This document shows positions 1-35,055 of a stretch of 35,055 nucleotides of DNA, piece by piece. This stretch comes from Bacteroidota bacterium (GTDB lineage: Bacteria; Bacteroidota; Bacteroidia; UKL13-3), in NCBI GenBank assembly GCA_034439655.1, contig JAWXAU010000176.1:1-35055 (forward strand). Reading direction: 5' to 3'. The notes under the pieces were generated by a model. It did no database searches. It was not told the origin of the DNA and worked only from the letters and a program-made list of their open reading frames with translations. The translations under genes and the position numbers were made by a program. Every line of letters begins with the position of its first letter. Position 1 is the stretch's first letter.

Positions 1-96
1 AGAGTTAAAACCGGAATTGTTAGTTAAGTAGTAAATAATGGCAAAAAAAATCGGCTGAAACGGTTGATTTTACTTGAAAGTATGGTTTAACTTCCG

Positions 97-152
97 CTAC
101 AAACCAAATCCGCCACAGGCGGAGAACTATTATAGTTTAAGAATTGGTATTA
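97..152 (+). repeat. Dispersed element, copy A (3' fragment)
   Basis: This 56-bp piece matches the reverse complement of the copy at the right edge of the window with only about two differences, and the copy at 13870-14037 less closely. It carries the small hairpin TCCGCC-ACA-GGCGGA (about 109-123) and ends in GGTATTA at 146-152, the terminal motif of the family. The 5' two-thirds of the element, including the large hairpin, is missing. The end lies inside the acetyltransferase stop codon (150-152, read on the minus strand). Confidence 0.8.
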
Positions 153-13869: not shown

Positions 13870-14037
13870 TAATACCGAAACACAATATACAATAGTCCCA
13901 AAAAAGGGGGACAAATCCCCCCACATCCCGATAATTATCGGGATTAAGTGGGGCTTTCGGGATGTAGTGCGGCATTACCATTCTAAAAACTAATCAGCCA
14001 TAGGCGGAGAACTATTATAGTTTCAGAAATGGTATTA
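13870..14037 (+). repeat. Dispersed structured element, copy B (full length)
   Basis: A 168-bp non-coding unit starts with TAATACC and ends with GGTATTA, a 7-bp terminal inverted repeat. It is about 85% identical by eye to the reverse complement of the copy at 34906-35055. It contains a weak hairpin (GTCCC/GGGAC, about 13896-13912). It then holds a strong one with CCCCAC (13919-13924), the palindrome ATCCCGATAATTATCGGGAT (13925-13944), a TAA bulge and GTGGGG (13948-13953). Last comes a hairpin near 13994-14008 that has an A-G mismatch here. It has no coding frame. It looks like a MITE- or REP-type element or a structured RNA. Confidence 0.8.
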
Positions 14038-14225
14038 TTTACAACTTTGGCATATAGGCACTCAAAACATGATTGATAACCAGATGCTTGTGGTTGTGCC
14101 CACCGCGGCGGATTCACCAACTACCGCCGTGCAGCTTACATTAGGAATACATAAATGCCGCAAATTTACATTAATGTAAAAAAAATTGGTGGAAAATTCA
14201 ACAATATATCTATTTTTAAGGATTG
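14038..14225. other. Rest of the 13777-14279 gene-free stretch
   Basis: Beyond the terminator and repeat copy B, this part holds a GC-rich dyad, CGGCGG (14106-14111) / CCGCCG (14124-14129) with a 12-nt loop, in otherwise AT-rich DNA, and the small palindrome TTTACATTAATGTAAA (about 14165-14180). I see no convincing coding frame, although short ones exist. The dyads may be remains of further repeats or regulatory sites. Confidence 0.4.
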
Positions 14226-26565: not shown

Positions 26566-26592
26566 AATATATTATAGTTTTAACTGATTTTT

Positions 26593-26676
26593 TATGGTGA
26601 CATTTATGGTGACATTTATAGTGACATTTATAGTGACATTTATGGTGACATTTATAGTGACATTTATGGTGACATT
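26593..26676. repeat. Seven tandem 12-bp units next to the AlbA_2 gene
   Basis: Seven contiguous units of TATGGTGACATT or TATAGTGACATT (order G, G, A, A, G, A, G at the variable base) fill 84 bp, starting 1 nt beyond the AlbA_2 stop codon. On the minus strand one frame reads (NVTI) repeated. That frame is shifted by one from the AlbA_2 gene and stays open to a TAA at 26572-26574. In the gene's own frame the units read K-C-H-H/Y. Confidence 0.92.
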
Positions 26677-26677
26677 T

Positions 26678-28003
26678 TTATAGAGATCGTATTTCCCAAT
26701 GCCCGCCTTTGTTGCCTCCTAGCCTTTTAATTTTATTTTCGTCTTGTAGTTGTTTTAAGATTCTTTTGATCGTTCTTTCTCCTACATTAATTTTTTCTGA
26801 TAGTTCGCTAATTGTGATAGTTTCGTTATTGGCTATAAAGTACATTACTTTATCGGTTGAGGTTCCAATAGCTTTTGGAATAGTTGATAAAAATGGACGT
26901 TTAGCAGTATAATTAAATTCTATAATAAAACCAGATAAATCATACTTGAAAATAGGTTGTGGAACTTTTGCTTGCTTGCACTCATTAATAATTTTGATGG
27001 TACCTCTACCCCAAGTTTCAATTAGACCAGCACGAAAAAAGCAATTAGCAATGTCGGGATTAAAAGGACGAGATGGATGTTTCGTTTTTAAGCGTTCTAC
27101 TGTCCAATCATCGGGCAACTGTCCCTCATTCCAAATTATCAATTTATTGTTATATACACTTATTTGTATAGGATTGCCGCTACTATAGTCTTTATGAACA
27201 ATGGCATTGAGCAAGGCTTCTCGAATTGCAGCTTCAGGTACGGGGTATTGCTCCATTCTGTTTAATCCTTTGTATGAAATACTAGCTTTTAGATATTTGG
27301 TTAATAGTAAATCTACCGTCTTTTCAACTTGTTCAAAAAGATGCCCATGTATTTCATCCTGAAATGCTAAATCATCATCACTATTGAAAAAGCCGACTTT
27401 AACATAGGCACCGGTCACATATTTTTCTGGATCGGGATGGAAAAGTAAAGCAACAGCTCTCTTGTAATATATTTTGTCAGCTTTTAAGTGAAGCCTTTCT
27501 AATAATATATTGGGTTTATCTTTTAAGAATTCAATCGGCATCCGTTTGGTATCTGCAGCTTTAATTTTGAAATAATCAAAAGCTGATTTTGCCAATTCTT
27601 TTATTGTGATATTGGGCTGTGGAACGCTATCCCAGTGCTTGCCTTGTTTCTGTAAGATAAATTTATCCAATGCAGCACCTTTAAGTTCTTGTTTTGTACT
27701 GCCACTTCTGTAATGATACTGTCCTTTATAACTTACCGGAGAAGGATAAGGTTCAATAATAATTTCCAGATATTGCTTCTTGGTTTTTGTTTTAAGGTTT
27801 ACATTTACTAAAATACCAAGTATATCTTTTGTTTTGTTGGGTATTTCTTCTAATAATTTTTTAGGTTCTTTGAGGCCGGTTACGATGCCTTTATCACTAA
27901 TACCGATATATAATTTTCCACCATTAGCATTAGAAAAACCACAAATCCATTTGATGTATTCATCACGCCATGTTTCTTTATATTCAATATTTTGATTTTC
28001 CAT
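26678..28003 (-). CDS. AlbA_2/HATPase-type DNA-binding regulator with winged helix
   Basis: The 441-aa protein has an N-terminal Schlafen-type AlbA_2 domain (EYKETWRDEYIKWICGFSNA, then GGKLYIGISDKGIVTGL). A middle GHKL-type ATPase-like region follows, with REALLNAIVHKDYSSGNPI, YNNKLIIWNEGQLPDDW and FFRAGLIETWGRGTIKI. The C-terminal winged helix is ETITISELSEKINVGERTIK, followed by RILKQLQDENKIKRLGG. These proteins are often mislabelled RecG-like helicases; they are thought to be transcription or stress regulators. The family often carries tetrapeptide-repeat linkers, and a 12-bp array that could encode one follows this stop codon. It starts 19 nt after the stop of the TPR gene, so it is probably in the same transcript. 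Confidence 0.9.
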   Translation of the reverse strand: MENQNIEYKETWRDEYIKWICGFSNANGGKLYIGISDKGIVTGLKEPKKLLEEIPNKTKDILGILVNVNLKTKTKKQYLEIIIEPYPSPVSYKGQYHYRSGSTKQELKGAALDKFILQKQGKHWDSVPQPNITIKELAKSAFDYFKIKAADTKRMPIEFLKDKPNILLERLHLKADKIYYKRAVALLFHPDPEKYVTGAYVKVGFFNSDDDLAFQDEIHGHLFEQVEKTVDLLLTKYLKASISYKGLNRMEQYPVPEAAIREALLNAIVHKDYSSGNPIQISVYNNKLIIWNEGQLPDDWTVERLKTKHPSRPFNPDIANCFFRAGLIETWGRGTIKIINECKQAKVPQPIFKYDLSGFIIEFNYTAKRPFLSTIPKAIGTSTDKVMYFIANNETITISELSEKINVGERTIKRILKQLQDENKIKRLGGNKGGHWEIRSL

Positions 28004-34905: not shown

Positions 34906-35055
34906 TAATACCAATTCTTAAACTAAAATAGTTCTCCGCCTGTGGCGGATTTGGTGTGTAGAATGGTAATGCCGAACTACATCCCGAAAGCCCCGCTTAA
35001 TCCCGATAATTATCGGGATGCGGGGGATTAGTCCCTTTCTTTTGGACTATTATAT
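34906..35055 (-). repeat. Dispersed structured element, copy C (cut by the window edge)
   Basis: Starts with TAATACC at 34906-34912 and runs to the end of the window in the opposite orientation to copies A and B. On the minus strand it has the same order of structures: TAGTCC/GGACTA, then CCCCGC (complement of 35020-35025), the palindrome at 35000-35019, TAA and GCGGGG, then TCCGCC-ACA-GGCGGA and GGTATTA. Here the small hairpin is intact. The left end, which should carry TAATACC, lies beyond the window. Confidence 0.8.

Follow-up and report, generated by a model that had tools for sequence, protein, structure and literature searches.

The window analysed here, 35,055 nucleotides long, is the entire contig C176 of genome G000, a 3.50-Mb draft of 205 contigs which is 97% complete. 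The sequence-only reading had described a multi-hairpin element in three copies; all three exist, but only copy B is complete. Copies A and C are contig-end fragments, as the contig end cuts C and the end of an IS cuts A at position 97, and the family to which they belong numbers at least 200. The features of the three copies are as follows.

1 to 96, no strand assigned: end of an unrelated IS splitting copy A, with terminal CGGAAGTTAAACC reading from the IS end inward.
97 to 149, plus strand: copy A, the right-hand third of the element (most of unit 2).
150 to 152, plus strand: right flanking TTA of copy A, which on the minus strand doubles as the TAA stop codon of the adjoining GNAT-like ORF (150 to 644).
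13,870 to 13,872, plus strand: left flanking TAA of copy B, at the target-duplication position; a TWA precedes TACC in most copies.
13,873 to 14,034, plus strand: the complete copy B, TACC...GGTA, 162 nt, long form I, aligned end to end with the family consensus.
13,873 to 13,974, plus strand: unit 1 of copy B, a hairpin running from the left inverted repeat as far as TGCGGCA, into which a central GC-rich nested palindrome is inserted.
13,919 to 13,953, plus strand: central module of copy B, a CCCCAC/GTGGGG stem enclosing the 20-nt perfect palindrome ATCCCGATAATTATCGGGAT (13,925 to 13,944).
13,976 to 14,034, plus strand: unit 2 of copy B, a hairpin TACCATTCT...AGAAATGGTA with the apex (T)CAGCC-ATA-GGCGG(A).
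14,035 to 14,037, plus strand: right flanking TTA of copy B, at the target-duplication position.
34,906 to 34,908, minus strand: right-hand TWA flank of copy C, some 22 nt beyond the metK stop codon.
34,909 to 35,055, minus strand: copy C, long form, its left end lost to the contig end.

The likeness reported between copy B (13,870 to 14,037) and the inverted copy C (34,906 to 35,055) was confirmed by alignment (87.5% over 152 nt), as was that between A (97 to 152) and C, said to differ at two positions (96.4% over 56 nt). The TAATACC/GGTATTA ends are present as described, and so are the internal dyads, except that the third is imperfect in B (TCAGCC-ATA-GGCGGA), though perfect in A and C. Copy B has unlike flanks, TAA on the left versus TTA on the right, and as single-stranded DNA it folds well beyond expectation (z = -5.0 against shuffles, with 0 of 200 shuffles as good). 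Elsewhere in the window, a 12-bp repeat, TTTATRGTGACA, stands in tandem at 26,579 to 26,686, at the end of a minus-strand ORF (26,678 to 28,003). Further intergenic GC-rich palindromes of the type CCCGCCGCGGCGGG / CACCGCGGCGGA recur in the genome (window 14,098 to 14,115; L003, L092, L114, L130) and apparently form a separate short-repeat family.

The sequence-only reading had named few copies, or ends varying at random, as the outcome that would count against it. Genome-wide counts, which are based on pattern searches, gave instead 203 left ends at no more than three mismatches in the 3.5-Mb genome (reversed control pattern, 0), with conserved TACC...GGTA ends and a density of one copy per ~17 kb. 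A 50-nt core, again at no more than three mismatches, matched 102 times with none for the reversed control, and 43 were identical among the matches listed. When 40 of 335 first-look candidates were scored by BLAST of copy B, all 40 were confirmed as matches. Beyond this genome, the family consensus found no match in two genomes of the same genus, 21 from its family or 16 from its class; a degenerate end pattern did not rise above control in the congeners G001 and G002, and an exact 28-mer had no match in 84,980 species genomes, a set which may lack the source genome. Judged by AspRS, at 91-92% identity, the closest named genomes are MAGs that carry the label Bacteroidetes or Flavobacteriaceae. 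As more than 200 copies occur here and none was matched in the congeners or in the family and class genomes, the family seems to represent a recent, lineage-limited burst confined to one uncultured Bacteroidetes species.

Full copies are 117-163 nt long and non-coding, of the size (below ~500 bp) and copy number of a MITE, and are laid out as TWA, then TACC[GA]A...GGTA, then TWA, with imperfect terminal inverted repeats of ~25 bp (TACCGAAACTCAATATATAATAGT versus TACCAATTCTTAAACTATAATAGT). The flanks were compared in 84 full copies with distinct flanks, and 74 of these had TTA or TAA on both sides, the 3-bp TNA form of IS5/IS1031 (TTA/TTA 31, TAA/TAA 23, TTA/TAA 10, TAA/TTA 10, others 10). The left and right W agreed in 54 of the 74 and differed in 20 (31/10/10/23; one-sided Fisher p = 1.0e-4). 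This non-matching 27% is likely to have been caused by recombination between copies or by misassembly of the draft genome; at least two apparent mismatches (L026/L069 and L109) are composites whose outer flanks match. The element thus inserts with a 3-bp TWA duplication, and the search for target duplications that had been proposed also yielded an empty site: at L196, removal of the element and one TTA restores a DUF2306 protein, gap-free over 147 of 147 profile positions (E 2.4e-30). Two further gene interruptions, in a YkuD gene (L078, TAA/TGA flanks) and a Response_reg gene (L203), agree with this reconstruction. Copies have also entered intergenic spacers and one another: L226 is nested in the inverted repeat of another copy with TAA duplicated (..ATATAA, then TACC...GGTA, then TAATAGTCC..), and L097 and L087 have entered GGCATTAACATTC in the interior of other copies, again with TAA duplicated.

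The body consists of two adjoining hairpins, units of 53-102 nt with TACC...GGTA at each foot (unit 1 limits being TACC...GGTA/GGCA), and the short form, made up of unit 1 (TACCGAAACTCAATATATAATAGTCC...GGACTAAACATATTGTAGTTCGGTA) and unit 2 (TACCATTCT...AGAATTGGTA), folds into two adjacent hairpins over its full length (RNA z = -8.6). Hairpin modules vary among copies, giving forms of roughly 120, 133 and 162 bp. The centre of unit 1, classified in 126 copies, is the long nested palindrome in 70, CCCGAATGCTTTCGGG in 23, absent in 15 and CCCCGCAAGTTTGCGGGG or similar in five, the remaining 13 being variants of the named classes or unclassified. Unit 2 has the apex TCCGCC-NNN-GGCGGA in 112 copies; 13 others carry an AGTC-loop-GACT stem, the arms of which vary on both sides and the loops of which include both CAAA and TTTG. 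Among 47 long copies (mean pairwise identity 90%), the central palindrome, which is missing from short copies and in others is absent or swapped for different hairpins, is the best-conserved region at 97.7%, followed by the ends at 94-96%, with the 5' part of unit 2 lowest at 85%.

Single units, pairs and composites are all mobile. Unit 1 occurs by itself between TAA/TAA flanks (L114), and in five three-unit composites (L026, L096, L100, L109, L233) the outer TWA match; the moving unit is defined by the outermost TACC/GGTA pair, so that unit 1 alone, pairs and three-unit composites have all moved. L036, L037, L054, L059 and L237 are arranged differently: two copies are fused in tandem, unit 1 of one continuing at TTACC/ACCGAAAC into the left end of the next, with no TWA duplication. 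These fusions look like slippage at the repeated TACC and not insertion.

The high copy number, conserved TACC...GGTA ends, TWA duplication, nested insertions and clean empty-site reconstruction bear out the first of the identities put forward by the sequence-only reading: this is very probably a family of non-autonomous cut-and-paste DNA transposons (a MITE), presumably mobilised in trans and apparently confined to this species. That movement was by cut-and-paste and not copy-and-paste is something we infer from the families which make such duplications. An enzyme of the IS5/IS1031 (PIF/Harbinger-like) type, a DDE transposase that duplicates TNA/TWA, could have worked in trans on the TACC ends, and is favoured because the IS1031 group prefers TNA targets and makes a 3-bp repeat (PMC12016507) and PIF/Harbinger elements duplicate TWA (PMC4482050). 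Within the MITE reading this enzyme is our best guess, although one that could well fall either way.

The transposase with matching ends that the sequence-only reading had suggested looking for was not found, either by TIR pattern or by profile searches with four families (PF01609, PF13359, PF13586 and PF01797), nor was any IS with TACC...GGTA ends in the draft assembly. In two TIR pattern searches run with the MITEs masked, the only matches were nested copies, solo ends and copies interrupted by an IS. Two remnants, which we take to be IS4-like and IS1182-like, were found with PF01609; the matches to PF13359 and PF13586 were rejected as donors, as the ends of the ISs in question are (A)GACCTCTTTC and GGGTCTG. 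The IS5-like ISs found in this genome begin (A)GACCTCTTTC, GGGTCTGGTCAAAA or GGGTCTGCTCA, none of them with TACC, and so do not share the ends of the elements. Since no IS with matching ends was found, mobilisation by an IS5/IS1031-like transposase is a step that we infer, and the source transposase may since have been lost, be unassembled, or have come from a donor whose ends have drifted. Replication or cruciform errors at the stem tips could have added, removed and inverted hairpin modules, and the altered modules would then have spread, mobility needing the ends alone.

A variant of this scheme would make the hairpins themselves part of the mobility mechanism, with each TACC...GGTA unit recognised or extruded as a folded strand or cruciform, in which case copies would spread only while their stems stay paired. 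It would explain why stem tips have been exchanged whole for other self-complementary sequences, the two-sided stem changes (CCTAAAATAG/CTATTTTAGG, CCTATAATAG/CTATTATAGG, CCAAAAATAG/CTATTTTTGG) and the loops found in both orientations (CAAA/TTTG), but we consider it unlikely. The coexistence of several shapes makes it possible to follow the gain and exchange of hairpins in palindromic mobile DNA.

Folded strands are central to a further possibility, namely that these are REP/BIME-type palindromes spread by a RAYT (Y1 HUH transposase), which recognises single-stranded hairpins and leaves no target duplication. All units are indeed hairpins, the hairpin form persists despite sequence change, and two weak Y1_Tnp-like ORFs lie close to copies; both matches to PF01797, however, fall under the Pfam cut-off (20.2 and 18.9 versus 23 bits), and as copies recur every ~17 kb their closeness is weak evidence. 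Like REPs and BIMEs, the elements are palindromic, intergenic and of high copy number and have other ISs inserted in them (PMC1525189). REPs measure 20-40 bp and are associated with a RAYT (PMC3733652, PMC2817692), whereas the elements here are 117-163 bp long, with units of 53-102 nt on TACC/GGTA feet in place of a 20-40-bp palindrome with a GTAG or CGTC foot tag. Together with the TWA duplication and the reconstructed empty site, these differences make the REP/BIME identity which had been offered for the element very improbable.

Its third suggested identity, a structured RNA, here taken to include a riboregulator or terminator that selection maintains for the sake of the transcript, is a little less probable again. 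It would account for the strong folding and the mostly intergenic position of the measured copies, few of which separate a divergent gene pair: in raw counts from a simple ORF call, 74 copies with long flanks include 26 between convergent, 38 between co-directional and 4 between divergent gene pairs. The scarcity of the last is also as expected if promoter insertions are removed. Against it, an Rfam 15 scan of the window at the gathering threshold returned two tRNAs only, the 200 copies occupy unrelated contexts and interrupt some genes, and they were not found in congeners. The covariation of the unit-2 stem is modest, a C/T-G/T association with p = 1e-4 in a single 2x2 test which ignores the relatedness of the copies and was used in place of a covariation model because the hairpin classes do not align.

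That the family was inflated or made chimeric through misassembly of a draft (and probably metagenome-assembled) genome is the least probable reading, for although many contigs start or stop inside copies and 27% of flank pairs are non-matching, most copies have unique flanks on both sides, and repeat collapse cannot create matching duplications, gene disruptions or nested copies and would reduce, not raise, the copy count.

At least four other ISs have in turn landed in the MITEs, as has been seen before in palindromic repeats (PMC1525189). An ISL2-like IS with AGACCTCTTTCATAATT ends (examples at L053, L211-L217, L223, C12:27361 and C172:9506), a fragment of which in L210 matches DDE_Tnp_4, has 26 of its 66 junctions within elements, compared with 0.6% of random ANT sites in the window; ANT is found at 65 of the 66, and since a junction is one side of an insertion there may be fewer than 66 insertions. 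A second IS, CGGAAGTTAAA.., sits in copies (window 1 to 96, L082, L088, L099 and L151), the end seen in the window recurring in L082 and L099 and a related end in L088 and L151; the flanks of this end (CGGAAGTTAAAMCATACTTT), CTACAA and ATATAA, suggest a 6-bp duplication, and the gene of this IS lies beyond the contigs analysed. A third, GGGTCTGCTCA.., lies inside L142 and L143. In L128 (C83:1-3027), a frameshifted IS4-like IS with CCTATCGTGTGGACACA inverted repeats occupies ~427-1862, inserted in the apex of the GGCGGA hairpin. The DDE transposase adjoining the copy on C83 was considered as an autonomous parent and rejected: the IS to which it belongs is broken and IS4-like, has separate ends of its own (CCTATCGTGTGG) and came to lie in the hairpin apex by insertion.

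Elements of this kind are known; this family looks new, and so do the interchangeability of its hairpins and the way in which another transposon lands in it. In an uncultured Bacteroidetes bacterium, it seems to illustrate clearly a burst of non-coding transposons that is both recent and limited to one lineage. The family breaks assemblies, many contigs beginning or ending in copies, and its ~200 dispersed, similar repeats offer a substrate for recombination.

Amongst known systems, the IS1031 group of the IS5 family and PIF-Harbinger share the 3-bp TNA/TWA duplication (PMC12016507, PMC4482050), but the IS1031-group example ISLrh starts GAACCTGTCTAGTATCT, whereas the elements here start TACC and are non-coding. 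A recent lineage-specific burst is also seen in MITECca01 of Cardinium, likewise a member of the Bacteroidota, where 169 copies make it the most abundant mobile element of the genome (PMC9769881). MITECca01 differs in that an identified IS982 parent is still present, and none was found for the elements described here.

BOX elements of Streptococcus pneumoniae are modular, and the likeness to them is one of modularity and nesting; the modules here are hairpin tips exchanged within TIR-bounded units. Nested and clustered copies of BOX have been reported along with RUP and SPRITE (PMC10969869). There is also a resemblance in general build to the Correia (CREE), RUP and ERIC-type MITEs. Correia and RUP elements duplicate TA at their targets, unlike the 3-bp TWA duplicated here, and the body of two tandem hairpins, each with a TACC/GGTA foot, sets the present family apart from them. 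In other respects they are alike, all being non-coding, ~100-200 bp long, intergenic and of high copy number, with terminal inverted repeats, a short AT-rich duplication and a transcript that could form stems (PMC10969869).
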